From Achromobacter sp. B7 (lineage in GTDB: Bacteria; Pseudomonadota; Gammaproteobacteria; Burkholderiales; Burkholderiaceae_B): DNA of 64,000 bases. The notes below the pieces were generated by a model that had not been told where the DNA came from, did not search any database, and saw nothing but the letters and a program-made list of their open reading frames with translations. A program made the position numbers and the translations under genes. Shown here one piece after another: positions 16,839 through 37,047 of this stretch (its first letter is position 1; the number at the start of each line of letters is the position of its first letter). The stretch spans positions 496,001 to 560,000 of the forward strand of contig NZ_CP032084.1 in assembly GCF_003600685.1 (NCBI RefSeq). The letters are read 5' to 3'.

Positions 16839-17333
16839 TTATGGCTTGGCGGATTCCGAGCGGGTGGCCACCACTTGCAGCTTCAGTTCGCCCAGCGCCT
16901 GGAACAGCGCGTTGCGGGTGGACTCGGGCAGGTCGCCAAACATGGACTTGACCCAGGTTTCATGGGCGCGCGCCATGCGGGCAAAGCTTTTCTTGCCCTG
17001 GGGCGTGAGCTTGATGAGCGAACTGCGGCGGTCGGACTCGACCTTGGTGCGCACCACCAGCCCTTCCTTTTCAAGCTGGTCGGTAATGCCGGTGATATTG
17101 CCGTTGGTGACCATCATGTGCCGCGAGAGCTCGCCCATCTTCATGCCCTTGGGCGCGCGTTGCAATTGCGCCATCAGGTCAAAGCGGGGCAGGGTGGTGT
17201 CGAACTCGTTACGCAGGCGGCTGCGGATCTCGCTTTCGACGAGGTTGGCGCAGGTGAGCATGCGCAGCCAGAGGCGCAACGCATGGTGGTCGTCGGGCGC
17301 GGCGCGGGATTCGAGATCAGGAGCGTCAGTCAT
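16839..17333 (-). CDS. MarR family transcriptional regulator, probable aryl-CoA-responsive repressor
   Basis: A winged-helix regulator of 164 residues with the MarR core (MGELSRHMMVTNGNITGITD as recognition region, VESDRRSSLIKLTPQGK as wing). The frame is open to a TTG at 17357, but the ATG at 17333 is preceded by AAGAA at usable spacing. It is divergent from the importer operon, and a 20-bp palindrome at 17482-17501 lies between them. The same palindrome recurs at the promoter of the CoA pathway at 29.5 kb. MarR proteins of this kind repress aromatic CoA pathways and respond to the CoA thioester (AbmR of 2-aminobenzoate degradation is the close functional parallel), so I infer that role here. 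Confidence 0.88.
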   Translation of the reverse strand: MTDAPDLESRAAPDDHHALRLWLRMLTCANLVESEIRSRLRNEFDTTLPRFDLMAQLQRAPKGMKMGELSRHMMVTNGNITGITDQLEKEGLVVRTKVESDRRSSLIKLTPQGKKSFARMARAHETWVKSMFGDLPESTRNALFQALGELKLQVVATRSESAKP

Positions 17334-17481: not shown

Positions 17482-17501
17482 ATACTTTAAACCTAAACTA
17501 T
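17482..17501. promoter_or_regulatory. Putative MarR operator, copy 1 (importer promoter)
   Basis: ATACTTTAAACCTAAACTAT, an imperfect palindrome in the MarR-importer divergent gap. It matches copy 2 at 29552-29571 in 17 of 20 bases. TTGAAG just upstream and TATGAA at its right end are promoter-like, so a bound repressor would block transcription of the importer. Confidence 0.65.
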
Positions 17502-17601
17502 GAACCGCGCCAGCTTTCCCTATGCCGCGCGCAGAAGTCATTCGAATCGCACCCTCAATAAGAACACCCTCTGCGCGGGCTCGCGCACGGAGCACACCAC
17601 C

Positions 17602-18765
17602 ATGCGTTTGATCACTTCCCTTATCGCCGCCGCCGCGCTGGTTCCGGCCGTGGCCATGGCCGACGCCGTCAAGGTCGGCATCGCCAACGATATCTCCGGC
17701 CCGTTCTCGGCGCTGGGCGCCGAAGCGCGCGATGGCTTCAACCTGGCCATCAAGCAACTGGGCAGCAAGCTGGGCGGCCAGCCCGCCGAATTCGTGCAGA
17801 CCGACATGGGCGGCAATCCCGACCAGGCCCGCCAATTGGTCACGCGTTATATCCAGCGCGAAAAAATCGATTTCTTCACCGGCCCGATCGGCTCGAACGT
17901 GGCGCTGGCCGTCGGCCCCGCCCTGTTCGCCGCCAAGGTGCCGTACCTGTCGAACAACCCGGGCCCCAGCCAGTTCGCCGGCGCCCAGTGCAATAACTAC
18001 TGGTTCGGCACGTCGTACCAGAACGACGCCTTCCACGAAGCCGCCGGCAAGGTCGCCGCCGACCGAGGCTTCAAGAAAATGTTCATCATGGCCCCCGACT
18101 ATCCGGCGGGCAAGGACGCGTTGACGGGCTTCAAGCGCGGCTACAAGACCGCCCCGGGCGACGAGGTCTACACCAAGCTGGGCCAGATCGACTACGCCGC
18201 CGAGATCGCGCAGATTCGCGCCGCCAAGCCGGACGCCGTCTACATCTTCCTGCCGGGCGGCATGGGCATCAACTTCGTCAAGCAGTTCGTGTCGGCCGGC
18301 CTGTCGCAAAGCGTCAAGCTGATCGGCCCGGGCTTCTCGGCTGACGAAGACGTGATCCAGGCCGTGGGCGAACCCATGCTGGGCATGTACAACACCGCCC
18401 AGTGGGCGCATGACCTGGACGTGCCGCAGAACAAGGCGTTCGTGGACGCCTTCCGCAAGGAATACAACGGCCGTTACCCGTCGGTTTACGCCGCCCAGGC
18501 GTACGACGTGATCATGGCCATGGACGCCGCCGTCAAGCAGGCCGGCGGCAAGGCCTCGGATCGCGCGGCCGTCATCGCCGCCCTGGAAAAGGCCGACTAC
18601 CCGTCGGTGCGCGGCAGCTTCACCTACGGCAAGAACCACTATCCGATCCAGGCCTATTACCTGCGCGTCGTCGACAAGGACGGCAGCGGCCGCATCACCA
18701 ACAAGCTGGTCGGCAAGGTGTTCGACAAGTACCAGGACGTCTACGTCGGCGAGTGCAAGCTCTGA
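17602..18765 (+). CDS. ABC transporter substrate-binding protein, branched-chain amino acid type
   Basis: A periplasmic receptor of 387 residues with a signal peptide (MRLITSLIAAAALVPAVAMA, cut near residue 20-22) and the LivJ-type start VKVGIANDISGPFSALG. The frame is open to 17500, but the ATG at 17602 has GGAG upstream and a clean signal peptide. The sequence continues with QLVTRYIQREKIDFFTGPIG, typical of receptors in this family that bind aromatic acids. It is the first gene of a five-gene importer. The shared operator with the CoA pathway suggests the ligand is the pathway's aromatic acid, probably 2-aminobenzoate. A paralogue without its own permeases lies at 38.8 kb. Confidence 0.9.
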   Translation: MRLITSLIAAAALVPAVAMADAVKVGIANDISGPFSALGAEARDGFNLAIKQLGSKLGGQPAEFVQTDMGGNPDQARQLVTRYIQREKIDFFTGPIGSNVALAVGPALFAAKVPYLSNNPGPSQFAGAQCNNYWFGTSYQNDAFHEAAGKVAADRGFKKMFIMAPDYPAGKDALTGFKRGYKTAPGDEVYTKLGQIDYAAEIAQIRAAKPDAVYIFLPGGMGINFVKQFVSAGLSQSVKLIGPGFSADEDVIQAVGEPMLGMYNTAQWAHDLDVPQNKAFVDAFRKEYNGRYPSVYAAQAYDVIMAMDAAVKQAGGKASDRAAVIAALEKADYPSVRGSFTYGKNHYPIQAYYLRVVDKDGSGRITNKLVGKVFDKYQDVYVGECKL

Positions 18766-18896
18766 GGTAAGACGCCCAAGCGCGCGTCAGCCGTGGTTTC
18801 CGGCCCAGCCGGACGCGGCCGGCGCGCGCCGCCGTCCCATGTAGGTTTGAATCGCACGCGCACCGCTATCCAGGCGCGCGGCAGGGGGAAGTGTTC

Positions 18897-19817
18897 ATGA
18901 CGTTTACGCTGATCGTCGAGCAATTGCTGAACGGTCTGCAGTTTGGGTTGATGTTGTTTTTGATCGCGGCCGGGCTGACCCTGGTTTTCGGCATCATGGA
19001 CATCATGAATCTGGCTCACGGCTCGCTCTACATGGCCGGCGCCTATGTCGCCGCCGAGACCATGCAGCGCACAGGTTCATTCACCGCCGCCGTCCTGGTG
19101 GCGGCCGTCGCCACCGGCCTGGTCGGCGTGGTGCTGGAACTGACGCTTATCCGCCGCCTTGCGCTGCGCGACCATCTGGCCCAGGTGCTGGGCACCTACG
19201 CCGTCATCCTTATCGCCAATGACCTGGTCAAGATGATCTGGGGTCCGGCGCCCGTCATGCTGAACATGCCGGCTGTGTTGTCAGGTCCGGTGCGGCTGCT
19301 GCCCGACCTGCTGTACCCGGCCTATCGGCTGATGATCATCGTGTTCGGCGTGGCCGCCGCCGCAGGGCTGTACTGGTTCGTGACGCGCACCCGCGCCGGC
19401 GTGCTGGTGCGGGCCGGCGCGTCCAATCGCCAGATGGCCACGCTGATGGGCGTGCGCGTGCCCTTGCTGTTCCTGGGCGTGTTCGTGCTGGGCGCCATGC
19501 TGGCCGCCGTGGCCGGCGCGTTGCTGGGGCCGATCACGTCGGTGCAGGTCGGCATGGGCGAAGAAATCCTGATCCTGGTGCTGGTGTGCATCGTCATCGG
19601 CGGCATCGGATCGATTCGTGGCGCGTTTGTCGGCGCCTTGCTGGTGGGCATGGTCGACACGGCGGGGCGGGCCTTCCTGCCCATGTTGCTGCGCCAGGTC
19701 TTTTCGCCCGCTGTCGCGTCCAGTGTCGGTCCGACGCTGGCCGCCATCGCCATCTACGTATTGATGGCGGCCGTGCTGGTGTTCCGGCCCTCGGGCCTCT
19801 TTCCGGCGCGGGGTTGA
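18897..19817 (+). CDS. ABC transporter permease, LivH type
   Basis: The first inner-membrane permease of the importer, 306 residues, with about eight hydrophobic helices and the LivH-type motifs GLQFGLMLFLIAAGLTLVFG and MDIMNLAHGSLYMAGAY. The ATG at 18897 is chosen over the GTG at 18891 because a strong AGGGGGAA site sits at correct spacing from the ATG. The stop overlaps the next ATG by one base (TGATG), showing translational coupling within the operon. Confidence 0.92.
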   Translation: MTFTLIVEQLLNGLQFGLMLFLIAAGLTLVFGIMDIMNLAHGSLYMAGAYVAAETMQRTGSFTAAVLVAAVATGLVGVVLELTLIRRLALRDHLAQVLGTYAVILIANDLVKMIWGPAPVMLNMPAVLSGPVRLLPDLLYPAYRLMIIVFGVAAAAGLYWFVTRTRAGVLVRAGASNRQMATLMGVRVPLLFLGVFVLGAMLAAVAGALLGPITSVQVGMGEEILILVLVCIVIGGIGSIRGAFVGALLVGMVDTAGRAFLPMLLRQVFSPAVASSVGPTLAAIAIYVLMAAVLVFRPSGLFPARG

Positions 19818-20782
19818 TGATGAAAAGCACAATCTGGACGGTGGTCCTGTTGTTGGCGCTGGCGGCATTCCCGCTGGTCGCGCCCGCACTGGGCCTGGAT
19901 TTCTACATTTCGTTCGTGCGCCGCGTGCTGATCTACGCCCTGGCCGCGACCAGCCTGAACCTGATCCTGGGTTACGGCGGCATGGTGGCGCTGGGCCACG
20001 CGGCCTTCTTTGGCGCGGGCGCCTACGCCGTGGGCATCCTGGCGATGTCGGGCGTTACATCGGCGTTTATCGTCTGGCCGGTGGCGATGCTGCTGGCGGC
20101 CGTGCTGGCCGCGATCACGGGGGCGATCTCGCTGCGCACGCGTGGCGTCTACTTCATCATGATCACGCTGGCGTTCGCGCAGATGCTGTTCTATATCTTC
20201 ATTTCGCTGCGCCAGTACGGCGGGGAAGACGGGCTGAACCTGCCCGGCTATTCCACCTTGCCGGGCATCGACCTGGCTAATGACGTCAGCTTCTATTACC
20301 TGGTGCTGGTGCTGTTTGCGCTGCTGATGTGGGTGTTCAGCCGCGTGGTGTCGTCGCGCTTTGGCACCGCCTTGCAGGGCATTCGCGAAAACGAATCGCG
20401 CATGGAATCCATGGGCTATCCCGTCTACCGCATCAAGCTGGTGGCGTTCACGCTCAGCGGCGCGGCGGCGGGCCTGGCGGGCGCGCTGCTGGCCAATCAC
20501 AACCTGTTCATTTCTCCCAGCCTGATGCATTGGACGCAGTCGGCCAACCTGCTGATCATGGTGCTGGTGGGCGGCATCGGGCTGCGCTGGGGCGGTGTGG
20601 CCGGCGCGGTCGTGATGCTGACGCTGGAAGAAGTGCTGCGCTTGTGGACGGAATACTGGCACCTGCCGCTGGGCGTGTTGCTGCTGTGCGTGGTGTTCGG
20701 CGCCCCGCGCGGTCTGGTGGGCCTGTTCGGCCCGATGTTCGGCGGACGCGCCGCTGCCCAATCCGGCAAGGTGGGATCATGA
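19817..20782 (+). CDS. ABC transporter permease, LivM type
   Basis: The second permease, 321 residues, with a hydrophobic N-terminus and the LivM signature SLNLILGYGGMVALGHAAFFGAGAYA shortened here to its core GYGGMVALGHAAFFGAGAYA. It forms the transmembrane channel with the LivH-type partner. Two adjacent ATG codons (19817 and 19820) are possible starts. It overlaps the ATPase gene by ATGA at 20779-20782. Confidence 0.92.
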   Translation: MMKSTIWTVVLLLALAAFPLVAPALGLDFYISFVRRVLIYALAATSLNLILGYGGMVALGHAAFFGAGAYAVGILAMSGVTSAFIVWPVAMLLAAVLAAITGAISLRTRGVYFIMITLAFAQMLFYIFISLRQYGGEDGLNLPGYSTLPGIDLANDVSFYYLVLVLFALLMWVFSRVVSSRFGTALQGIRENESRMESMGYPVYRIKLVAFTLSGAAAGLAGALLANHNLFISPSLMHWTQSANLLIMVLVGGIGLRWGGVAGAVVMLTLEEVLRLWTEYWHLPLGVLLLCVVFGAPRGLVGLFGPMFGGRAAAQSGKVGS

Positions 20783-21570
20783 GCCTGTCATCCATTGTCC
20801 AGACCCCCTCGGCAAATACGCCCGCCTTGCAAGCCACCGGCCTGGTGCGCCGCTTTGGTGCGCTGGTGGCCACCGACAATGTGTCGCTGTCCTTGAATCC
20901 GGGTGAGATCCACGCCTTGATCGGCCCCAACGGCGCCGGCAAGTCCACGTTGATCCATCTGTTGTCCGGCACCTTGGCGGCCGACTCGGGCACGCTGACG
21001 GTCGGCGGACGCGACGTGACCGGCCTGAACGCGCACCAGCGGGTGGCGGCCGGTTTGTCCCGGTCATACCAGATCACCAATATCTTCAAGCAGTCCAACG
21101 TGTTGGACAACCTGGTCCTGGCGGTGCAGGCGCACGCCGGCAGCAGCTTCCGGTTCTGGAAGCCGCGCGCCGCCGAGGCTGCGCTGTACGAACAGGCGCG
21201 CGAGCTGGCGCGTGAATGCGCCATCGACGCCAGCCTGCTGGACCGCCCGGCCGGCACCCTGCCGCACGGCGAACAGCGCAAGGTGGAATTCGCGCTGGCG
21301 CTGGCCGCGCGTCCCAGTGTGCTGTTGCTGGACGAGCCCATGGCCGGCATGGGGCCGGACGAAACCGTCCGCCTGACCGAACTGATCGAAAGCCTGCGCG
21401 GCCGGGCCGCCATGCTGCTGGTCGAACACGACATGCAGGCGGTGTTCCGCCTGGCCGACCGTTTGTCGGTGCTGGTGTATGGCCGCGTCATCGCCACCGG
21501 CACCCCCGACGACATCCGCGCCAATCCCGAAGTGCGCCAAGCCTACCTGGGCGACGAGGAGACCGCATGA
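20779..21570 (+). CDS. ABC transporter ATP-binding protein, LivG type
   Basis: One of the two ATPases of the importer, 263 residues. Walker A is GPNGAGKST, the signature region is LPHGEQRKVEFALALA (LPHGEQ variant usual for LivG) and Walker B is VLLLDEPMAGMGPDE, followed by the H-loop LLVEHDMQAVF. The SYQITNIFKQSNVLDNL segment is characteristic of LivG. The ATG at 20779 overlaps the permease stop. It ends in an ATGA overlap with the LivF-type gene. Confidence 0.93.
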   Translation: MSLSSIVQTPSANTPALQATGLVRRFGALVATDNVSLSLNPGEIHALIGPNGAGKSTLIHLLSGTLAADSGTLTVGGRDVTGLNAHQRVAAGLSRSYQITNIFKQSNVLDNLVLAVQAHAGSSFRFWKPRAAEAALYEQARELARECAIDASLLDRPAGTLPHGEQRKVEFALALAARPSVLLLDEPMAGMGPDETVRLTELIESLRGRAAMLLVEHDMQAVFRLADRLSVLVYGRVIATGTPDDIRANPEVRQAYLGDEETA

Positions 21571-22274
21571 TGCTGACCATTGAATCGGCCAAGAGCGGCT
21601 ACGGCGCCAGCCAGGTGCTGTTCGGCGTGGACCTGCAAATTGGCGCGGGGCAGGTGGTGACGCTGCTGGGCCGCAACGGCATGGGCAAGACCACGCTGCT
21701 GCGCACCCTGTTTGGCCAGTTACCGCTGCGCGGCGGCAAGATTCACTTTGCGGGCCAGGACATCAGCGGCTGGAGCACGGACCGTATCGCGCGGGCCGGC
21801 GTGGCCATCGTGCCGGAAGGTCGCCAGTGCTTTCCGAACCTGAGCGTGCGCGAACACCTGACCGCTTTCGTGGCGGGCCGCAACCCCGACATTACGGACC
21901 CGTGGACGCCCGACCGCGTCTTCGACCTGTTCCCCCGCCTGCGCGAACGCGCCCGCAACATGGGCAACCAGTTGTCGGGCGGCGAACAGCAGATGCTGGC
22001 TATCGGCCGGGCGCTGGTGACCAATCCGCGCCTCTTGATCCTGGACGAAGCCACCGAAGGGCTGGCCCCCAAGATCCGCGAAGAGATCTGGCATTGCCTG
22101 GCGCGTCTGCGCGAAGCCGGGCAGACCATCCTGGTCATCGATAAATATGTCGAAAGGTTGCTCAGCCTGGCGGATCAGCACGTCATCCTGGAACGCGGCA
22201 AAGTGGTCTGGACGGGCGACTCCCCCGCGCTGGACGCCGACCGTGGCCTATGGGAACGCTATCTGGGCGTGTAG
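21567..22274 (+). CDS. ABC transporter ATP-binding protein, LivF type
   Basis: The second ATPase, 235 residues, with Walker A GRNGMGKTT, the signature LSGGEQQMLAIGRAL and Walker B LLILDEATEGLAPKI. The VPEGRQCFPNLSVREHL stretch is typical of LivF. It is the last gene of the importer operon; 252 noncoding bases follow before siaA. Two consecutive ATG codons at 21567 and 21570 are possible starts. Confidence 0.93.
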   Translation: MMLTIESAKSGYGASQVLFGVDLQIGAGQVVTLLGRNGMGKTTLLRTLFGQLPLRGGKIHFAGQDISGWSTDRIARAGVAIVPEGRQCFPNLSVREHLTAFVAGRNPDITDPWTPDRVFDLFPRLRERARNMGNQLSGGEQQMLAIGRALVTNPRLLILDEATEGLAPKIREEIWHCLARLREAGQTILVIDKYVERLLSLADQHVILERGKVVWTGDSPALDADRGLWERYLGV

Positions 22275-22526
22275 TAATAAAGCTGCACAGGGGCGGGTGA
22301 GCGGAAAAATAATAAGAAAAAAGTAGGAAATAAAACGCAATAAACCGCCATTTTCATTGCTGCGTTGAAACACAAGGTGTCTGGCTCGAATCCAGACGTT
22401 TGCAGCTGTTTCAAAAGCCCCCGCTGTTCTCTACACTTGTCGCGCCTGTCCCCATCGCGTGTGCTTGCCGACTGGGTACGCACGTGACGCACGTTATGTC
22501 TTATCAAGTTGTCAGGAAGACTTCGC
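22275..22526. other. Noncoding gap between importer operon and siaA
   Basis: This gap starts with an A-rich stretch (about 22300-22345), unusual for this GC-rich window and suited to a promoter UP element. It then holds a hairpin GTCTGG-CTCGAAT-CCAGAC at 22379-22397 and an outer AACGCA/TGCGTT pair around 22334-22366. The siaA ribosome site AGGAAGA ends the gap. No open frame of interest. Confidence 0.4.
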
Positions 22527-24515
22527 ATGGCGAAATGGGGTTTGCGCAAAAAATCATTGATGGCGCTGTTGCTGGCGTGCGTGGTCGCCTTGGCGCCTGC
22601 CGCCGTCATCGGTTGGTTGGTGCTGGACGGCGTCCGGGACCACTTCGGACGCGCCTTCGCCGATAACTTCACGCAGCTGAACCGGCAACGCATCCTGGCG
22701 CCGGTGTCGCGCGAACTGGCCTTGTCCTTGCGGCTGGCCGACAGCGAAGTCACTCGCCGCTGGCTGCGCAACGAAAACGATCCCGCCGCCCGCGAGCTGT
22801 TCTTTCGCGAGGCCGACGGCTATCGGCGCGACTTGCTTGGGCGCGCCTACTTTATCGCCAGCGCCGCCTCCGGCAACTACTACTTCAACGACGACCAGCC
22901 GCTGTCCGAGGCGCCGCGCTATACGCTCAGCCCCTCGGCAGCGGACGACGGCTGGTTCTACGCCACGCTGAAGTCGCCGGCCAAGTACAACATCAACGTC
23001 AACCCGGACCTGAAGCTCAAGACCACCAAGGTCTGGATCAACGCGCAGGTGCGCGACGGCGACAAGGTGGTGGGGCTGACCGGTGCGGGGCTGGATGTGG
23101 GCGGCTTCCTGCGCGAATTCGTCAACAGCGGCCAACCTGGCGTTACGCCGATCATCGTTGACGAAGACGGCGCCATCCAGGCGCACATGGACCCCACGCT
23201 GATCGCCTATAACTCGGGCGCGGGCGGCGGCGCGGCGGACCGCGGGCGGGTGTTCAGCCTGCTGGACGCGGGGCCGGGCCGGGAAGAATTGCGCGCGGCC
23301 ATGCATGCCGCGCAGGCGGACCCGCAATCGGTGCAGACGGCCTGGGTGGTCATGGACGGCGCGCGCCAGCTGGTGTCGGTGGCGTATATGCCCGAACTGC
23401 ACTGGCACGTGCTCACCCTGGTGGACCTGGGCGCCGCGCGCGTGCTGGACACCGACTGGCTGTGGCCGGCCGCCATCGGCCTGGTGGTGCTGTTCGCCGC
23501 CATGCTGCTGTGCTTTGGCTACGCCATTGAACGCCTGATGCTGCGCCCCTTGCGACGCTTGCAGCAATCGGCACGCGCCATCGCCGACGGCAGTTACGAC
23601 GTGCGCCTGCCGCCGGGCGGCCAGGACGAAATCGGCGACCTCAGCCGCGCGTTCGGCGTCATGGCCGACAAGGTCCGCCAGCACACGGCCGAACTGGAAA
23701 GCAAGGTGCGCGAGCGCACCTCTGCCCTGGAAGACGCCAACCGCGCCATGGCGGCCGCGCACAAGAAGATCGGCGATTCCATCGACTACGCCAGCCTGAT
23801 CCAGCGCGCCATCCTGCCCGACCGCCAGATGACGCAATCGCTGGGCGCGCACCACTTCGTGCTGTGGAAGCCGCGCGATGTGGTCGGCGGCGACTTCTAC
23901 GTGTTCCGTTCCGATGGCGCCAACTGCCTGTTGGGCATCATGGATTGCGCGGGCCACGGCGTGCCGGGCGCGCTGATGACGATGCTGGCGCGCGCCGCGA
24001 TCGATCTGGCGATTACCGAGGTCGGCCCCAGCGACCCGGCCGGGGTGCTGACCCGCACCGACGGCGCCATCCGCGCGATGCTTGCGGATGCGCAATTGCC
24101 GCGCGCGCTGGCCACGAATACCGATGCGGGGCTGGTATATATTGACCGCCAATCCGCGCGCCTGCGCTATGCCGGCGCGAAGATCAGCCTGTACGCCAGC
24201 GATGGCGAGACCCTGCGCGAAATCCAGGGCGGCAAGCGCGCGCTGGGCGACAAGCGGGTGGGCGTCTATGAAAACATCGACGTGCCGCTGCAATCCGGCT
24301 GGACGTATTACCTGGCCACCGACGGCTTCCTGGACCAGGCCGGCGGCGAGCACGGATTCGGTTTCGGCAACACGCGTTTCGCGGAAATGCTCAAGAGACA
24401 CGCGCGGCAGCCGTTAACCGAGCAAGCAGCCGCGTTTTCGCAGGCGCTGGCGCAGTACCAGGGTGGCCGTCCCCAACGTGACGACATCACCCTGCTGTCT
24501 TTCCGTTTCGAATAA
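22527..24515 (+). CDS. siaA: SiaA, membrane-anchored PPM-type protein phosphatase with HAMP domain
   Basis: In Pseudomonas aeruginosa SiaA removes the phosphate from SiaC and so switches on the diguanylate cyclase SiaD. This 662-residue protein has the same plan: a membrane helix at about 10-32, an extracytoplasmic Cache-like sensor domain, a second helix near 312-336, a HAMP segment, a short coiled coil and a C-terminal PPM/SpoIIE phosphatase. Metal-binding residues are present: D456 in VVGGDF, D473 in GIMDCAGHG and the terminal DDITLL. The ATG at 22527 has AGGAAGA at good spacing; an upstream in-frame start at 22509 lacks one. First gene of the sia operon. Confidence 0.92.
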   Translation: MAKWGLRKKSLMALLLACVVALAPAAVIGWLVLDGVRDHFGRAFADNFTQLNRQRILAPVSRELALSLRLADSEVTRRWLRNENDPAARELFFREADGYRRDLLGRAYFIASAASGNYYFNDDQPLSEAPRYTLSPSAADDGWFYATLKSPAKYNINVNPDLKLKTTKVWINAQVRDGDKVVGLTGAGLDVGGFLREFVNSGQPGVTPIIVDEDGAIQAHMDPTLIAYNSGAGGGAADRGRVFSLLDAGPGREELRAAMHAAQADPQSVQTAWVVMDGARQLVSVAYMPELHWHVLTLVDLGAARVLDTDWLWPAAIGLVVLFAAMLLCFGYAIERLMLRPLRRLQQSARAIADGSYDVRLPPGGQDEIGDLSRAFGVMADKVRQHTAELESKVRERTSALEDANRAMAAAHKKIGDSIDYASLIQRAILPDRQMTQSLGAHHFVLWKPRDVVGGDFYVFRSDGANCLLGIMDCAGHGVPGALMTMLARAAIDLAITEVGPSDPAGVLTRTDGAIRAMLADAQLPRALATNTDAGLVYIDRQSARLRYAGAKISLYASDGETLREIQGGKRALGDKRVGVYENIDVPLQSGWTYYLATDGFLDQAGGEHGFGFGNTRFAEMLKRHARQPLTEQAAAFSQALAQYQGGRPQRDDITLLSFRFE

Positions 24516-24539
24516 ACGTTATCAGGGCGGTAACCCCCT

Positions 24540-25079
24540 ATGAATGCCTCCGATCTCTACGCGTTGGGCGAACGGTTCAACCAGAACCGGACCCTGCTTT
24601 GCTTTAACGGGCCGATCTCCCGCAGCCTGATCGAGGAAATCGGCAATGCGCTCAAGAATTACCTGAACGCGGAACATGCGCGGCCGGCCGAAGCCATGGA
24701 CGTCTTTTCGGTCTATATCGAAATGATCCAGAACATCCGCCAATACGCCACCGCCAATGGCGATGCCGAAGCCTGCGCCACGGTGGTCATAGGCCGCCGC
24801 GACGAAAGCCGCTACGTGGTGTCGGCGGGCAACAGGGTCAAGGCCGAGGACGGCCACGCGCTGGTTGCGCGCATCCGCGAACTGGCCGCGCTGGACAAGG
24901 CGGCGCTCAAGGCCGAATACAAGGCGCAGCTGCACAAGCCGCGCGCCCAGGGCGTGGCCTCGGGCGCGGGCCTGGGCCTGATCGATATTGCGCGGCGCGC
25001 CGGCGCTCCGCTGGAAGCCAGCCTGACGCCCACGGCGGGCGAGGGCGTTGCGTTCTTCAGCCTTAGCGTTGTGATCTGA
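24540..25079 (+). CDS. siaB: SiaB, protein kinase of the SiaABCD pathway
   Basis: SiaB phosphorylates SiaC and so opposes SiaA. The 179 residues form a GHKL-type ATPase fold: the N-box is visible in YIEMIQNIRQYA and a glycine-rich lid in ASGAGLGLIDIARRAG. The start MNASDLYALGERFNQ is the family N-terminus. It lies 24 bases after siaA and 40 before siaC, in the order known from P. aeruginosa. Confidence 0.9.
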   Translation: MNASDLYALGERFNQNRTLLCFNGPISRSLIEEIGNALKNYLNAEHARPAEAMDVFSVYIEMIQNIRQYATANGDAEACATVVIGRRDESRYVVSAGNRVKAEDGHALVARIRELAALDKAALKAEYKAQLHKPRAQGVASGAGLGLIDIARRAGAPLEASLTPTAGEGVAFFSLSVVI

Positions 25080-25119
25080 AGGCTACGCGCGCAGCCAAGA
25101 ATCATTTTCGGAGTATCTG

Positions 25120-25497
25120 ATGAAAGACCTGAACATTCCCGGGACGCAGTCCACGCCCGCCATCACCGCCGACGCCGCTGCCGGCGTGCTGGCGATGCGC
25201 GGCGACTCCTACCCCGAGAATTCGTTTGAATTGTTCGGCCCGGTCATTGAATGGGTCGAAGCCTATCTGCTGGGCACGACGGCCCCGTTGCGCCTGGAAC
25301 TGGAGCTGCTGTACCTGAACACCAGCAGCATCAAGTCCGTCATGGACATCTTCGACCTGCTGGAAGCGGCCCATTGCAAGGGCCAGCCGGTCAGCGTGAC
25401 CTGGTTCTACGACAAGCGCAACGAGCGTGTCGGCGAGCTGGCCGAGGAATTCAAGGAAGACTGCACCTTTCCGTTTTCGGTGGTTGGCCGCGAATGA
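25120..25497 (+). CDS. siaC: SiaC, phosphorylation-controlled partner of SiaD
   Basis: SiaC (DUF1987) in its unphosphorylated form binds and activates the cyclase SiaD. The 125 residues keep the family motif YLNTSSIKS, and the threonine in it is T68, the same number as the phosphosite known in P. aeruginosa SiaC. This agreement supports a working SiaA/SiaB switch. The stop overlaps the siaD start as ATGA (25494-25497), so SiaC and SiaD are translationally coupled. Confidence 0.92.
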   Translation: MKDLNIPGTQSTPAITADAAAGVLAMRGDSYPENSFELFGPVIEWVEAYLLGTTAPLRLELELLYLNTSSIKSVMDIFDLLEAAHCKGQPVSVTWFYDKRNERVGELAEEFKEDCTFPFSVVGRE

Positions 25498-26294
25498 AAC
25501 CGGGCGCCGCCGAGCTGGATCGCCGCATCGCCGAACTGCTGGCGGACCCTGCCCATACCGGCCACCCGCTGCGCGAGGCGCTTGAAGCGCTGTGGCGGCA
25601 CACGGCCGAACAGATGGCGCGCATCGAACGCGTGACGCAGTTGTCGGACGCGTACCAATCGATGGCGCACGAGCGCGAGCTGGGCCTGTGCGACCAGTTC
25701 GACCGCCAACTGCGCCGATTGACGCGCATTGCCCGCATTTCCGATCACTACCAGAACATGATGCGGGACTTGAACACCGCGCTGGAGGAAACGTCCAGCC
25801 GCGATCCGCTGACGGGCCTGCTGAACCGGCGCGCGCTGATGGACATGATCAAGCAGGAAGTGGGCCGCGCCTCGCGCAGCAACGAGAGCTTCGTGGTTGC
25901 CATGCTGGATGTGGACCACTTCAAGGCGGTCAACGACCGCTATGGGCACGAAACCGGCGACCGCGCGCTGGTTGAACTGGCCGGGGTGCTGCGCGAAAGC
26001 CTGCGCACCGGTGATCTATGCGGACGTTGGGGCGGCGAAGAATTCCTGGTGATGCTGCCCAACACGCAACCCGAAGCCGCCCAAGGCGTCATGGACAGGC
26101 TGGTCGGCGCGGTGCGCGGGCTGGCGGTGGCGGCGGGCGAGCACGACGTATTGAGGCTGACGGTCAGCATCGGCATGGCGCACTACCAATCCGGAGAAAC
26201 CTTTTCCGAAACGCTAAGCCGAGCGGACCAGGCGCTGTATCTGGCCAAGCAGGACGGACGCGATCGCGTCGCCCTTGGTTTTCCAAAGCGCTGA
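25494..26294 (+). CDS. siaD: SiaD, GGDEF-domain diguanylate cyclase
   Basis: SiaD makes cyclic di-GMP from two GTP and controls aggregation and biofilm formation in P. aeruginosa. The 266-residue protein has a helical N-terminal stalk (about 1-90) that is the SiaC-binding part in the known homologue, then a GGDEF domain starting at SRDPLTGLLNRRAL. The active-site motif is GGEEF (residues 180-184), and the product-inhibition site RxxD is present as R171-T-G-D174. All features predict an active, feedback-inhibited cyclase. The ATG at 25494 overlaps siaC. Confidence 0.92.
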   Translation: MKPGAAELDRRIAELLADPAHTGHPLREALEALWRHTAEQMARIERVTQLSDAYQSMAHERELGLCDQFDRQLRRLTRIARISDHYQNMMRDLNTALEETSSRDPLTGLLNRRALMDMIKQEVGRASRSNESFVVAMLDVDHFKAVNDRYGHETGDRALVELAGVLRESLRTGDLCGRWGGEEFLVMLPNTQPEAAQGVMDRLVGAVRGLAVAAGEHDVLRLTVSIGMAHYQSGETFSETLSRADQALYLAKQDGRDRVALGFPKR

Positions 26295-26333
26295 ATGAAA
26301 CCGGAACTGCTGTTTTCCGGTATGGAGCCCCTT

Positions 26334-28910
26334 ATGCTTGACACTCATCAGGCAAGCGTTTCAAGCGCGGGCCCCCAGGGCGCCGCGTGGCATACCCAGA
26401 ATTACCTGGCGTCGATGGATCGGGCGCTGTTGCTGTTCGACTTTGACGCCGATGGCGCGCTATTGAAGGCCAACGCCAATTTCCTGGCGGCGGTTGGCTA
26501 TACCCGCGAAGAGGCGCTGACGCTGCGCCACGACATGCTGTGCGACAGCATGGATGAAGGCAAGGGCATCGCCAGCGGCGAACGCATCTGGACGCGCTTG
26601 CGTCGGGGCGAACATTTTTCCGGCACGTGTCGCTACCGCATGAAGGACGGCGGCAGCCTGTGGATCGAAGCCACGTACCTGCCTTTGCCCGACGAGGACG
26701 GCGCCATCACGCGCGTGTCGGTGGTGTCGCGCAAGTCGATTGCCGACGCGGAACGGCAGGAAGAGATTCGCTTGCTGCTGCTGGGCATCAACGAAACGGG
26801 CAACGCGGTGGCGGTGTCCGGTTGCGATGGCCGCATCGTCTACGTGAACGACGGCTTTCAGCGCATGCTGGGCTTTGCGCGCGGCGCCGCGCTGCATCAG
26901 GAACTGGGCGAGTTGCTGGCGGGCGGACGCCCGGACGGCGGCACGCGCGAAGAACTGGACCGCCGCATCGCTTGCCGCGAAGGCTTCCATAAAGACGTGC
27001 TGGTCTATGACCGCTGCGGCAAGCCGTTGTGGGTGTCGGTCATGGCCAACTCGGTCTTCGATGACCGTGGCACGCTGGTCAACATCGTGGATGTGCTGAC
27101 CGACATTACGCCCACCAAGGTGCACGAGGTGCTGCAACGCCGCGTGCTGCAAGCCATGGTGAACGAGGCGTCGGTGGTCGAGGTCATGAACATGGTGTGC
27201 CGCGAGGTCGAGCGCCTGGCGCCCGAAGTGGCGGCGACGGTGTTGCGGGTGGACGATACGGGGCATCTGCGCCCGCTGGCGTCGCCGAGCATGCCGGACG
27301 CCTACTCCAGCGCGCTGGACGGGGTGAAGATTGGTCCGAATGTGGGCGCCTGCGGCACGTCGGCGTTCCTGGGTCGGCCGGTCATCGTGCCGGACATCGC
27401 GACGGACCCGCTGTGGGACGACTACCGCCATCTGCCGCTGCCTGAAGACATCAAGGCATGCTGGTCGTCGCCCATCAAGTCCAGCGATGGCCGGGTGATC
27501 GGTACGTTCGGCTTTTACTTCCGCGAACGCCGCCTGCCGGACGATTTTCATCATCGGCTGGTGGATGTGTGTGTGTATCTGTGCGCGCTGGCGCTGGAAC
27601 GCGAGGAAGCGCGCGCCCGGATTCGTCAGTTGGCGTTCTATGACGAGCTGACGGGCTTGCCGAACCGCAATCTGTTGCTGGCGCAGGCCGAGCAGGCGAT
27701 TGCGCGGGCGGAGCCGGAACGCAAGCGGGTGGCGGTGTTGTTCCTGGACCTGGATCGGTTCAAGCAGGTGAACGATACGCTGGGACATCCCATCGGCGAT
27801 GCGTTGCTGCGGGATGTGGCGCAGCGTTTGCGCCGGCTGGCGCGGGCGTCGGACATCGTGGGCCGCTTGTCGGGCGACGAGTTTGTGATGCTGATGCCGG
27901 ACTTCGAGCATGGCCGTCTGACGGCGGCGGCGGAACATGTCCTGGTGGCGTTGGCCCAGCCGTTTTCGGTGGGCGGCGTGACGTTGAATCCGTCGGTCAG
28001 TATCGGGATCAGCGTGTTCCCGGAGAACGGCCGCGATATGGATACGTTGCTGCGCCATGCGGACATGGCGATGTATCAGGCGAAGACGGCGGGGCGGAAC
28101 CGCATTTCTTTCTTCAGCGCGGAAATGAACCGTCAGGCGCAAGAACGTCTGGCGCTGGAAGCGGCGTTGCGAGATGCGTTGGAAGCGAAGGCGTTGCGGC
28201 TGCATTATCAACCGCAGGTGGGGTTGAAGAACGGCAGTCTGTATGGAATTGAGGCGTTGGCGCGATGGCGCCATCCGACGTTGGGCGATATTTCGCCGGC
28301 GCGGTTTGTGCCGTTGGCCGAGGAATGCGGGCTGATCGGCGACCTGGGGGACTGGGCGCTGCGCGAGGCGTGTTCGCAGTTGGCGATCTGGCGCAATAAC
28401 GGTTTGCGGGTGCCGTCGGTGTCGGTGAACTTGTCGGCCACGAATTTCCATAATCTGAATCTGCCGCGGATGATTGCGGCGACGTTGGCGGAATTTGGGC
28501 TGGCGCCGGCGGATCTGATGCTTGAGATCACGGAAGGGGTGGTGCTGGATGCCACGGCCGGGACGCTGCGCACGATTGCGGAGCTGCATCGCCTGGGGGT
28601 GCGGCTGTCGATGGATGACTTCGGAACCGGGTATTCCAGCCTGGGGCACTTGCGGCGGCTGATCGTCGATGAGCTGAAACTGGATCGCAGCTTTGTGCAG
28701 GGGCTGGAAAGCGATGATGCGGCGCGGGCGTTGACCAGTGCGGTGATACGGATTGGTGAAAGCTTGAGCCTGCCTGTGGTGGCTGAAGGCGTCGAGAATG
28801 AAGAGCAGCGACGGTTTTTGATCGAGCAGGGGTGCGCGGCGGGGCAGGGGTTTTTGTTTTCGCCACCGTTGCCGGCGGGGGAGTTGGAGGAGTGGTTGCG
28901 GGGGAGGTAG
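26334..28910 (+). CDS. PAS-PAS-GAF-GGDEF-EAL c-di-GMP signalling protein
   Basis: A soluble multidomain protein of 858 residues with two N-terminal PAS-like domains (about 20-140 and 145-260), a GAF domain (about 270-430), a GGDEF domain with the variant motif SGDEF (about residue 513) and an EAL domain. EAL residues needed for phosphodiesterase activity are visible: EAL in YGIEALARW, N in SVNLSATNF, E in MLEITEG, DD in MDDFGTGYSSL, K in DELKLDRSFV and E in VAEGVE. So it probably breaks down c-di-GMP; the SGDEF half may be weak, regulatory or active. The ATG at 26334 has GGAG six bases before it; an in-frame ATG at 26295 directly after the siaD stop is the alternative. It is the fifth gene of the sia operon by spacing. 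Confidence 0.88.
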   Translation: MLDTHQASVSSAGPQGAAWHTQNYLASMDRALLLFDFDADGALLKANANFLAAVGYTREEALTLRHDMLCDSMDEGKGIASGERIWTRLRRGEHFSGTCRYRMKDGGSLWIEATYLPLPDEDGAITRVSVVSRKSIADAERQEEIRLLLLGINETGNAVAVSGCDGRIVYVNDGFQRMLGFARGAALHQELGELLAGGRPDGGTREELDRRIACREGFHKDVLVYDRCGKPLWVSVMANSVFDDRGTLVNIVDVLTDITPTKVHEVLQRRVLQAMVNEASVVEVMNMVCREVERLAPEVAATVLRVDDTGHLRPLASPSMPDAYSSALDGVKIGPNVGACGTSAFLGRPVIVPDIATDPLWDDYRHLPLPEDIKACWSSPIKSSDGRVIGTFGFYFRERRLPDDFHHRLVDVCVYLCALALEREEARARIRQLAFYDELTGLPNRNLLLAQAEQAIARAEPERKRVAVLFLDLDRFKQVNDTLGHPIGDALLRDVAQRLRRLARASDIVGRLSGDEFVMLMPDFEHGRLTAAAEHVLVALAQPFSVGGVTLNPSVSIGISVFPENGRDMDTLLRHADMAMYQAKTAGRNRISFFSAEMNRQAQERLALEAALRDALEAKALRLHYQPQVGLKNGSLYGIEALARWRHPTLGDISPARFVPLAEECGLIGDLGDWALREACSQLAIWRNNGLRVPSVSVNLSATNFHNLNLPRMIAATLAEFGLAPADLMLEITEGVVLDATAGTLRTIAELHRLGVRLSMDDFGTGYSSLGHLRRLIVDELKLDRSFVQGLESDDAARALTSAVIRIGESLSLPVVAEGVENEEQRRFLIEQGCAAGQGFLFSPPLPAGELEEWLRGR

Positions 28911-28960
28911 GTGGCTGTTTTGGGTTGGCGTTCTAGGGGCGGGTGTTGGGTTCTTTTGAC

Positions 28961-29123
28961 GCCCGGCGCGGCGACGGCACGGGGCGGCGGGTCAACGATT
29001 GCGGTCCGGAGCCTTCGCTCCGGACTGCCCCGTCGTCATCCTCGTTGTCGCCTGCGGCGACTGCCTTCGGATTCCCTCGGGCTTATCGACTCCCCACCGC
29101 CCCGTGCCGCCGCCGCGCCGGGC
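28961..29123. repeat. Inverted-repeat element with 30-bp arms and nested hairpins
   Basis: The left arm 28961-28990 and right arm 29094-29123 are reverse complements in 28 of 30 bases. Between them lie two perfect hairpins: GTCCGGAGC-CTTC-GCTCCGGAC (29004-29025) and GTCGCC-TGC-GGCGAC (29047-29061). No coding sequence fits. It resembles a REP/BIME-type or small nonautonomous intergenic element, but could also be a structured RNA. Confidence 0.6.
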
Positions 29124-29225
29124 TGCGATCGGGCATTGTGATCGGTCGCTGGGGCGGGTGGGGTTCTTGAGGGTTTAGCCACGGGTGGGGTGGGGCGGAA
29201 GGTCTTGCGGGGCCCGCCCCAGGCC

Positions 29226-29245
29226 GGCCGCGCGGGCGGCCTTTT
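29226..29245 (+). terminator. Candidate terminator downstream of the sia/GGDEF-EAL operon
   Basis: GGCCGC-GCGG-GCGGCC, a 6-bp GC stem followed by TTTT. It lies 315 bases after the last stop codon, so it is a candidate only. It would also insulate the CoA-pathway promoter from upstream transcription. Confidence 0.45.
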
Positions 29246-29325
29246 GGGGCTTACGCGCTTTTGTGCGTCGGTGGGGGGCGCTCTCGCGCTTTTCGGGGCG
29301 GGTCTTGCGTGCGTTGGCGCGCTGG

Positions 29326-29402
29326 CTCTGGCTCTCGTTCTCTGCTTCTCTCCCCTGCCTCTCTCCCCTGCTTCTTTTCTCTGCTTCTATTCCTTTCTTT
29401 CA
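29326..29402 (+). repeat. Pyrimidine-rich tract with 13-base direct repeat
   Basis: About 77 bases almost wholly of C and T on the plus strand, including two copies of CTCTCCCCTGC at 29348-29358 and 29361-29371. Strong strand bias like this can form triplex or other non-B DNA. It sits about 125 bases upstream of the pathway promoter. Confidence 0.5.
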
Positions 29403-29527
29403 ATTTGCCTTGCTGGCTCCGCGCGGCGGGTGCGGCACTATTTTGTGGTCCGTGCGGTTTGTCTTTTTTGCGGTGACGTTCGTTGCCGTGTCCCTTTTTT
29501 CTGGTTTTCCTAATAGCTTTCCCGCAT

Positions 29528-29556
29528 TTGCGCACCCCTCACTTCAGGTATATATT
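29528..29556 (+). promoter_or_regulatory. Putative sigma-70 promoter of the CoA pathway operon
   Basis: TTGCGC at 29528-29533 and TATATT at 29551-29556, separated by exactly 17 bases. The leader from here to the first ATG is about 80 bases. The operator at 29552-29571 overlaps the -10 box. Confidence 0.6.
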
Positions 29557-29571
29557 TCAAGCCTAAACTAT
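29552..29571. promoter_or_regulatory. Putative MarR operator, copy 2 (CoA pathway promoter)
   Basis: ATATTTCAAGCCTAAACTAT; 14 of 20 bases agree with its own reverse complement, and 17 of 20 agree with copy 1 at 17482-17501. It overlaps the -10 box, the position expected for a repressor site. Confidence 0.68.
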
Positions 29572-29644: not shown

Positions 29645-31992
29645 ATGAAAATAGTCTGCATCGGCGGCGGTCCCGCCGGCCTGTATTTTGGTCTGCTCAT
29701 GAAGTTGCAGAACCCCGCTAACGAAGTGACGGTCATCGAACGTAATCGTCCGTATGACACCTTTGGATGGGGCGTGGTGTTTTCGGATGCCACCATGCAG
29801 AACTTGCGTGAAGCCGATCCCGTGTCCGCTCAGACCATTGGCGATGCGTTCAACCATTGGGATGACATCGACATCCATTTCAAGGGCCGCAGCATCCGCA
29901 GCAGCGGGCACGGTTTTATCGGGATTGGGCGCAAGAAGCTGTTGAACATCTTGCAGGCGCGTTGCGAGGATGTGGGCGTGAAGCTGGTGTTCGAGAACTT
30001 TGTTCAGGACGATCAGGCCATTGCCCGCGAGTACGACGCGGACCTGGTGATTGCGTCGGACGGTATCAACAGCCAGATCCGTACGCGCTACGCGGATACG
30101 TTCCACCCGGATATTGACCAGCGTCGTTGCCGCTTTGTGTGGCTGGGCACGAAGAAGGTGTTTGATGCGTTCACGTTTGCGTTCGTGCAGACGGAACACG
30201 GCTGGTTCCAGGCGCATGCCTATCGTTACGAAGATGGCATGTCGACGTTTATTGTCGAGACGCCTGAAGAGACGTGGCAGGCGGCGGGCATTGAGCAGAT
30301 GAGCCAGGAAGAGGGCATTGCGTACTGCGAAAAGCTGTTTGCGCCCTGGCTGGATGGCAATGCGCTGATCAGCAATGCGTCGCACCTGCGTGGCTCGGCG
30401 ATCTGGATTCGTTTCCCGCGGGTGATCTGCAACACCTGGGTGCACTGGAATACGCTGGAGACGGCGCGCGGTCAGCGTCGGGTGCCGGTTGTGCTGATGG
30501 GCGATGCGGCGCACACGGCGCACTTTTCCATTGGCTCGGGCACCAAGCTGGCGCTTGAGGATTCCATCGAGCTGGCGCGCTGCCTGAGCGGCGCCGAGGG
30601 CAGCGTCGAGGCGGGGCTGAAGCACTATGAAGAGGTGCGCAGCGTCGAGGTGCTGAAGATTCAGAACGCGGCGCGCAATTCCACCGAGTGGTTCGAGAAC
30701 GTTGAGCGTTACGCCGAACTGGAGCCGGAGCAGTTTGCGTATTCGTTGCTGACGCGTTCGCAGCGCATCTCGCATGAAAACCTGCGCTTGCGTGATCCGG
30801 CGTGGTTGGAAGGGTTTGAGCGCTGGATTGCGGAACGTGCCGGTGCGCCGGCGGCGCCGGGTCAGCGTCCGGCCATTCCGATGCTGACGCCGTATCAGGT
30901 GCGCGGCGTGCGCTTGAAGAATCGCATTCTGGTGTCGCCGATGGCGATGTATTCGTGCACGGACGGCGTGCCGGGTGATTTTCATCTGGTGCACCTGGGG
31001 GCGCGCGCCATGGGCGGCGCGGGGCTGGTCATGGTTGAGATGACGTGCGTGTCGCCGGATGGGCGCATCACGCCGGGGTGCCCGGGCCTGTGGAACGACG
31101 AGCAGACGCAGGCGTTCAAGCGCATTGTGGATTTCGTGCATGGCAATAGCGATGCGCGGATCGGTGTGCAGCTGGGCCATGCGGGCCGCAAGGGGTCAAC
31201 GCAGCTGGGCTGGCAGAAGATCGATCACCCGTTGGCGGAAGGGAATTGGCCGTTGCTGTCGGCCTCGGCGCTGCCGTACATCGAAGGGGTGTCGCAGACG
31301 CCGCGCGCGATGACGCGTGCCGACATGGACGATGCGCGCGACAACTTTGTGGCGGCGGCTCGGCGCGCGCAAGCGGCCGGTTTCGATTGGCTGGAGCTGC
31401 ACTGCGCGCACGGCTACCTGCTGTCCAGTTTCATTTCGCCGCTGACGAACCATCGGGACGACGAGTACGGCGGCAGCCTGGAAAACCGCTTGCGCTTCCC
31501 GTTGGAGGTCTTCAAGGCGGTGCGCGAGGTGTGGCCGCAGGACAAGCCGATGTCGGTGCGGATTTCGGCCAGCGATTGGGTGGAAGGCGGCATCACCGCC
31601 GACGACGCGGTGGAGATCGCGCGCCATTTCAAGGCGGCGGGCGCCGACATGATCGATTGCTCGTCCGGTCAGGTCAGCAAGGAAGAGAAGCCGGTTTACG
31701 GCCGCATGTTCCAGACGCCGTTCGCGGATCGCGTGCGCAACGAGGCGGGCATTCCCACCATCGCGGTGGGCGCCATTTTCGAAGCGGACCATGCCAACGG
31801 CATCATCGCGTCGGGCCGGGCGGACCTGTGCGCGTTGGCGCGTCCCCATCTGGCCGATGCCTCGTGGACGCTGCGTGAAGCGGCGCGCGTGGGCTATCGC
31901 GATGTGGCCTGGCCCAGCCAGTACTTTGCGGGCAAGCGCCAGCTGGAAACCAACTTCGAACGCGCTGCCGCGATGGCGCAACTGGATATCAA

Positions 31993-31996
<4 letters not shown>
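29645..31996 (+). CDS. 2-aminobenzoyl-CoA monooxygenase/reductase (or salicylyl-CoA 5-hydroxylase)
   Basis: A 783-residue fusion flavoprotein. The N-terminal half is an FAD monooxygenase ([15 protein letters not shown] at the start, [18 protein letters not shown] in the second FAD motif). From about residue 416 it is an Old Yellow Enzyme-type FMN reductase ([52 protein letters not shown]). This architecture is known from the Azoarcus enzyme that hydroxylates and then reduces 2-aminobenzoyl-CoA, breaking aromaticity without a dioxygenase. Automatic pipelines often name it salicylyl-CoA 5-hydroxylase. The beta-oxidation genes that follow and the lack of a gentisate dioxygenase favour the aminobenzoate role. 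First gene of a seven-gene operon. Confidence 0.88.
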
Positions 31997-32784
<788 letters not shown>

Positions 32785-32825: not shown

Positions 32826-33683
32826 ATGAGCAAGCAGTCCGAAGAGCACACCATGAAGCACCACAAGCGTCCGCTGGCCGGCTATCAGGCGCAGACGTTT
32901 CTGTGGGAGGTGTCGGCCGACGGCAAGATCGGCACGGTCACGCTGAACCGGCCCGAACGCAAGAACCCGTTGACGTTCGATTCGTACGCCGAACTGCGCG
33001 ACCTGTTCCGTTCGCTGGTGTATGCCACCGACGTGAAGGTCGTGGTGGTGACGGGCGCGGGCGGCAACTTCTGCTCGGGTGGCGATGTGCACGAGATTAT
33101 CGGGCCGCTGACCAAGATGAGCATGCCCGAGCTGCTGGACTTCACCCGCATGACGGGCGACCTGGTCAAGGCGATGCGCGCCTGCCCGCAGCCCATCGTG
33201 GCGGCGGTGGATGGGGTGTGCGCGGGTGCGGGCGCCATGGTGGCGCTGGCCGCCGATATGCGTTTGGGCACGCCGGCCGCGCGCACGGCGTTCCTGTTCA
33301 CCCGCGTGGGTTTGGCGGGCGCCGACATGGGCGCGTGCACCTTGCTGCCGCGCATGATCGGCCAGGGCCGCGCATCCGAATTGCTGTACACCGGCCGCGC
33401 CATGACGGCAGACGAGGGCGCCAGCTGGGGTTTCTTCAACGCGCTGCATGATTCGGCCAAGCTGGCCGAAGCCGCGCAGACGCTGGCCGCGCAACTGGCC
33501 GCCGGCCCGACGTTCGCGCATGGCGTCACCAAGAAGTTGCTGCATCAGGAATGGAACATGGGCGTGGACGAGGCCATCGAGGCTGAAGCCGAGGCCCAGG
33601 CCATCTGCATGCAGACGCGGGACTTCCATCGCGCCTACGAGGCCTTCGTGGCCAAGCAAAAGCCGGTCTTCGAGGGGAACTGA
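32826..33683 (+). CDS. Enoyl-CoA hydratase/isomerase family protein
   Basis: A crotonase-fold protein of 285 residues. The oxyanion-hole segments are [11 protein letters not shown] and [17 protein letters not shown], and the stretch [15 protein letters not shown] matches the second active-site region. The ATG at 32826 has GGAG at good spacing; the frame is open further upstream but overlaps the SDR gene. It likely hydrates or isomerises the ring enoyl-CoA after the monooxygenase/reductase step. It ends in a one-base overlap with the dehydrogenase gene. Confidence 0.88.
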
Positions 33684-36621: not shown

Positions 36622-37047
36622 ATGGCCGCAGCATTCACCAGCCAGGTAGAAGTCCGCTTTCGTCATTGCGACCCGGCGGGCATTGTGTTCTACCCCCGCT
36701 ATTTTGAAATGATCAATGACTTTGTCGAAGAATGGTTCGACAAGGGCATGGGCCTGCCTTTCCATGCCCTGCATGTGGACCGGCATATCGGCACGCCCAT
36801 GGCGTCGGTGACGTGCGATTTCAGCGCGCCCAGCCGCTGGCATGAACGCCTGCGCCAAACGCTGGAAGTCCAGCGTATCGGCGGCGCGTCGTTCAAGGCG
36901 CTGGTGCGCTTTGAAGGGCCGGACGGACAGTTGCGCTTGTCGGCCACGCTGACGATCGTGACGGTGGATTTACGGACGATGAAGTCCATGCCCATGCCTG
37001 CCGACCTGCGGGAACGCATGCAGGCTTATCTGGTTCCCGCGGCCTGA
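36622..37047 (+). CDS. Acyl-CoA thioesterase, 4-hydroxybenzoyl-CoA thioesterase type
   Basis: A small hot-dog-fold thioesterase of 141 residues with the family motif RHCDPAGIVFYPRYFEM, whose aspartate is the catalytic residue. It probably frees CoA from dead-end or accumulated aryl-CoA, a common companion of aryl-CoA ligases. The frame is open upstream to a TTG at 36565, but the ATG at 36622 follows a ribosome site inside the 8-bp repeat array. Part of the CoA pathway operon. Confidence 0.87.
   Translation: MAAAFTSQVEVRFRHCDPAGIVFYPRYFEMINDFVEEWFDKGMGLPFHALHVDRHIGTPMASVTCDFSAPSRWHERLRQTLEVQRIGGASFKALVRFEGPDGQLRLSATLTIVTVDLRTMKSMPMPADLRERMQAYLVPAA

Follow-up and report, generated by a model that had tools for sequence, protein, structure and literature searches.

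Two stretches of 20 base pairs that resemble each other stand 12 kb apart in the window analysed here (64,000 nucleotides of the genome of Achromobacter sp. B7), one before the genes of an importer and the other before an operon for the aerobic breakdown of aminobenzoate, and they raise the question of whether one regulator controls both. We consider it very probable that the two palindromes are operators of a single MarR-type repressor, encoded at 16839-17330, which would govern anthranilate uptake and coenzyme A (CoA)-dependent breakdown together with gcdH, a gene for glutaryl-CoA dehydrogenase, and a major facilitator superfamily (MFS) transporter. A motif pair noticed by eye would thus become a regulon that spans the genus and has a defined operator, targets of four kinds and a candidate repressor. 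The three central elements are:

16839..17330, minus strand: marR, 163 aa, candidate repressor, for which we coin the label AbmR (Pfam MarR 1.7e-12)
17482..17501, plus strand: putative operator site 1, ATACTTTAAACCTAAACTAT, in the marR-importer gap and importer promoter region
29552..29571, plus strand: putative operator site 2, ATATTTCAAGCCTAAACTAT, in the abm promoter region

The original prediction had both sequences and positions exactly right, including their identity at 17 of 20 bases and the location of site 1 between the MarR gene and the importer. It also described site 2 as a partial palindrome; 14 of its 20 bases indeed match its own reverse complement, and the same holds for site 1, so this is not a property of site 2 alone. 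The promoter that it placed at site 2 is present as TTGCGC, a 17-base spacer and TATATT (29528-29533 and 29551-29556), but is weak, its -35 box agreeing with TTGACA at only 3 of 6 positions. Both operators are embedded in promoter-like sequence that is itself conserved (CTTGTTTTG precedes site 1; CATTTGC and GTATATATTTCAAG surround site 2), a placement as would be expected for a repressor. A second CCTAAA half-site at 29577-29585 (CCTAAATAT) starts 15 bases after that of site 2 and is largely conserved in the genus alignment; possibly, it offers the repressor a weaker extra contact.

At up to 3 mismatches, the consensus finds only sites 1 and 2 in the window, and 100 shuffles yielded no match. 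When the two gaps themselves were shuffled, 3 of 1000 trials reached at least 17 of 20, so the pair alone is only moderately unlikely and constitutes modest evidence. What makes it convincing is conservation, not the 17/20 match itself. A position weight matrix (PWM), whose training set included both window sites and neither the gcdH nor the MFS sites, scores sites 1 and 2 at 36.3 and 33.9 and everything else in the window at -3.8 or below. A plasmid search using the promoter region gave no match.

The further claim that no third copy exists is true within the window and false genome-wide. The genome (6,236,552 bases on a single contig, C1) holds three consensus matches, the third being a 3-mismatch copy at C1:4698967 upstream of gcdH; a scatter of many copies, which would have spoken against the proposed regulon, was looked for and not seen with this specific consensus. 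Other candidates in the same genome score 10-14 (C1:3413259, 2402138, 1441082 and 3165797). Across 43 Achromobacter genomes, the consensus has 148 matches, versus 24 for a reversed-pattern control. Site 1 is present in all 43 at no more than 1 mismatch, as judged by eye, and site 2 in 41, the misses being the incomplete assemblies G028 (78% complete) and G033 (57% complete). Mean column identity is 0.996 across site 1 versus 0.70 and 0.66 in its flanks (28 named loci), and 0.998 across site 2 versus 0.67 and 0.79 (29 loci upstream of abmA). In the named Achromobacter loci, marR is 92-100% identical to that of the window, with the exception of A. aestuarii (82%). The distance between the two sites is usually 11.9-12.9 kb where both lie on one large contig, and the operators remain unchanged where the loci have become unlinked (1.31 Mb apart in G001; 5.49 Mb in contig coordinates in G015).

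The genes that the two sites precede are listed below; the permeases and ATPases of the importer are assigned by position, the ATPases also by reading, and all four are co-linear with the binding protein in relatives.

17602..18765, plus strand: periplasmic binding protein of a branched-chain-amino-acid-type ATP-binding cassette (ABC) importer (Peripla_BP_6 3.6e-76; best PDB match 4evq, E 5.4e-51)
18897..19817, plus strand: importer permease 1
19820..20782, plus strand: importer permease 2, start approximate
20779..21570, plus strand: importer ATPase 1
21567..22274, plus strand: importer ATPase 2
29645..31996, plus strand: abmA, 2-aminobenzoyl-CoA monooxygenase/reductase-type, with flavin adenine dinucleotide (FAD) monooxygenase and old yellow enzyme (OYE) domains (PRK08255; Oxidored_FMN C-terminal)
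31993..32784, plus strand: short-chain dehydrogenase/reductase (SDR) (Pfam adh_short 2.4e-60)
32865..33683, plus strand: enoyl-CoA hydratase family protein, start approximate (NCBIfam PRK08258, 499.6 bits versus 330)
33683..34855, plus strand: acyl-CoA dehydrogenase (Pfam Acyl-CoA_dh_1 1.6e-44)
34928..36568, plus strand: 2-aminobenzoate-CoA ligase-type AMP-binding enzyme (best PDB match 4wv3, anthranilate-CoA ligase, E 3.7e-80)
36622..37047, plus strand: 4HBT-family thioesterase, start approximate (Pfam 4HBT_2 1.1e-12)

The abmA product scores 1433 bits against NCBIfam PRK08255, a bifunctional salicylyl-CoA 5-hydroxylase/oxidoreductase model with a cut-off of 1078, and in the PDB matches of the ligase, benzoate-CoA ligases follow close behind 4wv3. 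A monooxygenase with FAD and OYE parts and a 2-aminobenzoate-CoA ligase thus share one cluster, and, judged by sequence, the six genes from abmA to the thioesterase fit the aerobic CoA route of anthranilate. The interval directly after the operon (37555-41297) encodes an AraC-family regulator (37555-38541), another binding protein of the branched-chain type that shares about 50% identity with that of the importer, and a dienelactone-hydrolase-like protein; the PWM scan found no matching operator there.

How the importer and the abm operon came to lie apart is answered by the arrangement in relatives, for which 80 named loci were compared. In 23 of 23 named loci of Pusillimonas, Candidimonas and Alcaligenaceae type, marR and abmA diverge from a gap that contains a palindrome scoring at least 18, with the caveats that many of these sites were PWM training data and that the only palindrome of one locus (L086) sits by marR and not by abmA. 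All 15 Bordetella loci with the importer have exact site 1; the 7 that show abmA have it following the importer without siaABCD in between, and in them a further copy with 1-2 mismatches precedes abmA. Since marR faces abmA, or the importer lies closer to it, in these relatives, the 12-kb split is a secondary, lineage-specific interruption, and the proposal of one regulon split by 12 kb is supported by this arrangement and by the conservation of the sites. The importer is distant, as had been predicted, only insofar as it is separated in the window; the separation reflects intervening genes in this lineage, namely siaABCD-like genes (SpoIIE phosphatase, DUF6272, SiaC and GGDEF proteins) and a gene for a PAS-GAF-GGDEF-EAL protein, which together occupy 22509-28910. 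Achromobacter shares the placement of siaABCD behind the importer with B. hinzii and some other Bordetella.

Two further kinds of gene were seen beside marR. An alpha/beta hydrolase gene with an HGGYW motif stands between marR and site 1 in L036 (9099-9986), L058, L059, L072, L076 and G155, and is absent from the corresponding interval of the window (17331-17481). A DUF2817 protein (Pfam; L084:8699-9826) is encoded between marR and abmA beside the palindrome, with similar-looking genes in L089 and L097.

Is the MarR protein the regulator that reads these sites? It is a winged-helix protein of the MarR family (Pfam MarR, 47.5 bits versus a cut-off of 24.6), an alignment of 20 sequences shows little or no variation in its DNA-recognition stretch, and, as in other members of the family, the palindrome occupies its own or divergent promoter gap (marR-importer or marR-abmA). 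An AlphaFold2 model (predicted local distance difference test, pLDDT, 84.6) has the MarR fold, with 3boq, HucR, PecS and MftR as best structural matches. Of 250 genomes of the bacterial family, 167 have marR (E<=1e-30), 133 have abmA (E<=1e-200) and 131 have both. Outside Achromobacter (221 genomes), the palindrome and its reversed control were counted 413 and 105 times in the 102 genomes with both genes, 396 and 104 times in the 36 with marR only, 227 and 284 times in the 81 with neither, and 1 and 6 times in the 2 with abm only; the palindrome exceeds the control only where marR is present. The marR-only figure is weakened because AT-rich genera inflate it, possibly through composition.

In two such genera, g46 and g47 (G217, G169, G147 and others), the palindrome far outnumbers its reversed control (50 versus 2 in G217; 72 versus 14 in G169). 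A global regulon is not claimed for them: in 17 of the 27 full-length loci inspected, the site falls within an open frame of at least 120 aa, which makes a compositional effect as likely.

Genera with more diverged MarR proteins extend the association. In g64, where the protein is 50-54% identical, the marR-abmA gap of all four genomes contains TTAGTTTAAACTTAAAATAA or its complement, which scores 34.4 and was not in the training set. In g67, 3 of 4 genomes have a site scoring 23.2 before abmA, and 7 of the 8 g46 genomes (MarR 44-49% identical) have a palindrome like ATAGTTTACATTTAAGCTAT roughly 150 bp ahead of marR itself.

The third genomic copy points to a third target. It starts 59 bases before a gene for a 397-aa protein, which by sequence is matched best in the PDB by glutaryl-CoA dehydrogenase (3eom, E 7.9e-222). 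With up to 3 mismatches allowed, the first pattern finds the gcdH site in 38 of 43 Achromobacter genomes, and the second pattern adds G005, G019, G029 and G034, a total of 42 of 43 with only the incomplete G028 missing; an adjoining gcdH start was confirmed in 42 of the 42 site-bearing genomes (39, plus G000, G003 and G036 at L144, L149 and L152). A sample of 30 genomes from 18 other genera, chosen among those with abmA and marR and all having gcdH, yielded a site scoring at least 10 within 300 bases in 13; 12 of these sites, which differ in sequence, begin between -39 and -49, and that of G165 begins at -126. Judging by how often scores of 10-18 occur outside operators, about 0.13 such hits would be expected by chance; this background is mostly coding and hence less AT-rich than promoters. 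The shared operator hints at where the anthranilate pathway may lead, and suggests a glutaryl-CoA end. This link is regulatory only; on the chemical side, a route to glutaryl-CoA would have to remove the keto group of the ring.

The fourth target is an uptake gene that the window's genome lacks. It encodes a 450-aa MFS transporter of the aromatic acid/H+ symport type, with a score against TIGR00895 (293 bits) that does not reach the cut-off of 418.55, and occurs at E<=1e-100 in 18 of the 43 Achromobacter genomes; a palindrome scoring 21-28 lies 56-161 bases upstream in all 18 (L209-L226). Three genomes in which that threshold yielded no MFS gene (G012, G013 and G030; L227, L228 and L229) still have a copy of its operator beside pstB. 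The leftover copy in G012 is identical to working-looking copies elsewhere, and those of G013 and G030 have one further base changed.

A second uptake gene, for a TctC/Bug-type binding protein, is preceded in the window's own genome by ATTCTTTATGCTTAAACTTT (C1:2533998, score 18.7; L232, L265). This gene (E<=1e-140) occurs in 27 of the 43 Achromobacter genomes, and in each of the 27 it is preceded by a palindrome scoring 17-25. Its site is embedded in a longer ATTCTT...AAGAAT palindrome; we regard its membership as doubtful and do not count it. The MFS and Bug genes almost exclude each other, with both in 2 of the 43 genomes and neither in none (Fisher p 5.8e-10, a value that ignores ancestry), and MFS bearers are scattered at several places on the abmA tree of 29 genomes. 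It is as if either gene could be lost, but not both.

Several findings weigh against so simple a picture. A consensus scan for a sigma-70-like promoter at sites 1 and 2 found none, and a loose palindrome pattern shows no excess in the window's genome (209 matches versus 213 for the control); a search by that pattern was dropped as too unspecific. Of the two abm copies in the fourth g67 genome (G178), one has a site scoring 15.9 and the other has none. For g26, g28 and g53, the highest score before abmA ranges from -0.4 to no more than 7.4 across all 9 regions; these sequences all start 59-86 bases ahead of the gene and are palindromic at 12-16 of 20 positions. For gcdH, the upstream score is below 5 in 16 of the 30 genomes from other genera and 5.6 in one more. 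Finally, marR occurs without abmA in 36 of 117 abmA-less genomes, and 11 of 12 such loci fetched have no palindrome scoring at least 14 in the 9-18 kb around marR. The twelfth locus, from G155, has retained two operators along with the importer and the hydrolase; an abmA frame can be seen to begin there, although no abmA was found at E<=1e-200. That marR outlives abm in places points to another, or older, role there, or to a paralogue.

We propose that, without substrate, a MarR dimer would occupy palindromes resembling WTAnTTTAnnnnTAAAnTAW in the promoters of the divergent ABC importer, the abm operon, gcdH and, where present, the MFS transporter, presumably repressing rather than activating them. 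Anthranilate, the putative substrate of the importer, would enter and be activated, and a ligand, most likely anthraniloyl-CoA and otherwise anthranilate, would free the repressor so that the target genes are expressed together. Divergent marR, operator and catabolic operon form a standard layout of MarR repressors (PMC5487221).

As ligand, anthraniloyl-CoA is proposed by analogy with CouR and FerC, and the ordinary MarR fold returned by the model and the fold search does not discriminate between ligands. It is quite conceivable, if not what we would expect, that the protein responds instead to free anthranilate, kynurenine or another tryptophan or indole metabolite, and that the regulon serves wider tryptophan/auxin catabolism; such a reading is compatible with the regulon and differs in the ligand only. 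The alpha/beta hydrolase between marR and site 1 in several relatives makes a tryptophan-side ligand possible through its weak similarity to kynurenine formamidase (4e11, E 1.3e-16), which is among its PDB matches behind a better-scoring lipase and esterases. Likewise, IadR of Variovorax binds free indole-3-acetic acid, and iad loci, highly prevalent in Achromobacter, end in anthranilate according to the available part of the source (PMC9613470). Nevertheless, the sites sit on genes of a CoA pathway (the ligase operon and gcdH), and the regulators of comparable pathways, CouR and FerC, respond to CoA thioesters (PMC4737184, PMC5487221, as far as available). 

A less probable alternative is that the gcdH and MFS sites are due to chance or to the similar box of a paralogous regulator, leaving a regulon of importer and abm only. 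The Achromobacter gcdH site does differ from the first pattern at 3 positions, gcdH has a LysR-like gene some 2 kb away, and the low-scoring gcdH genes of other genera point the same way; we judge it unlikely, however, because the site is kept before gcdH in nearly all Achromobacter, recurs at a narrow distance with differing sequence in 12 genomes elsewhere, and accompanies every MFS gene. Least probable of all is that the palindrome belongs to another regulator, such as the AraC-family protein at 37555-38541 or an unlinked one, with MarR as a bystander: marR does persist without abm and mostly without strong sites nearby, but the divergent marR-site-abmA order in all 23 named loci, the palindrome before marR itself in g46, the confinement of the palindrome excess to marR-bearing genomes and the binding of such inverted repeats by MarR dimers (PMC5487221) all speak for the MarR protein as the reader of the operator.

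Under a MarR-governed regulon, co-regulation of gcdH makes a concrete, testable proposal for the lower pathway. Because gcdH lies in the same regulon, we tentatively suggest, as a possibility that we hold short of confidence, that the ring-opened C7 product is routed via glutaryl-CoA or a homologue to crotonyl-CoA, combined with an interchangeable uptake arm (importer site in 43 of 43 genomes; MFS or Bug in each, both in two). The regulon may also be the lower half of auxin consumption, because iad loci, which are prevalent in Achromobacter, convert auxin to anthranilate (PMC9613470, available part).

With respect to the enzymes, the operon is like the abm pathway of Azoarcus/Aromatoleum evansii, Bordetella petrii (Bpet0549-0554) and Arthrobacter Rue61a, which has a CoA ligase and a 2-aminobenzoyl-CoA monooxygenase/reductase (PMC2572626, PMC3534580). 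The available parts of those accounts name no MarR regulator, and the regulators given for Arthrobacter are PaaX-related and belong to quinaldine degradation; nor is a glutaryl-CoA link mentioned, the word 'glutaryl' being absent from PMC3534580. Among the matches listed from the open-licence literature, titles and opening abstracts describe no regulator of the abm pathway for Achromobacter, Bordetella or relatives.

With respect to regulation, the candidate is like CouR of Rhodococcus jostii RHA1 and FerC in being a MarR repressor of a CoA-activated aromatic acid pathway; in the accessible parts of PMC4737184 and PMC5487221, the same inverted-repeat box serves CouR at four promoters, of which divergent genes share one. 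Against the PDB chains of CouR, the similarity is at the family level (5cyv, E 3.1e-6; 6c28, labelled CouR, E 5.4e-7), which makes the protein a distant homologue. The boxes also differ (cATTGA-n5-TCAATg for CouR versus WTAnTTTAn4TAAAnTAW here), as do the substrates, hydroxycinnamate or ferulate for CouR and FerC and presumably anthranilate here. IadR/IacR is likewise a MarR repressor of an indole-derived aromatic pathway, its iad loci yielding anthranilate (PMC9613470, in part). It matches the present protein at E 1.7e-7 (7kfo), far behind the MarR protein 3boq (E 4.4e-22); the target genes differ, and the neighbours here are argJ, the importer and abm rather than iad or iac genes. The iad pathway acts upstream of anthranilate, while the regulon proposed here would act downstream of it.

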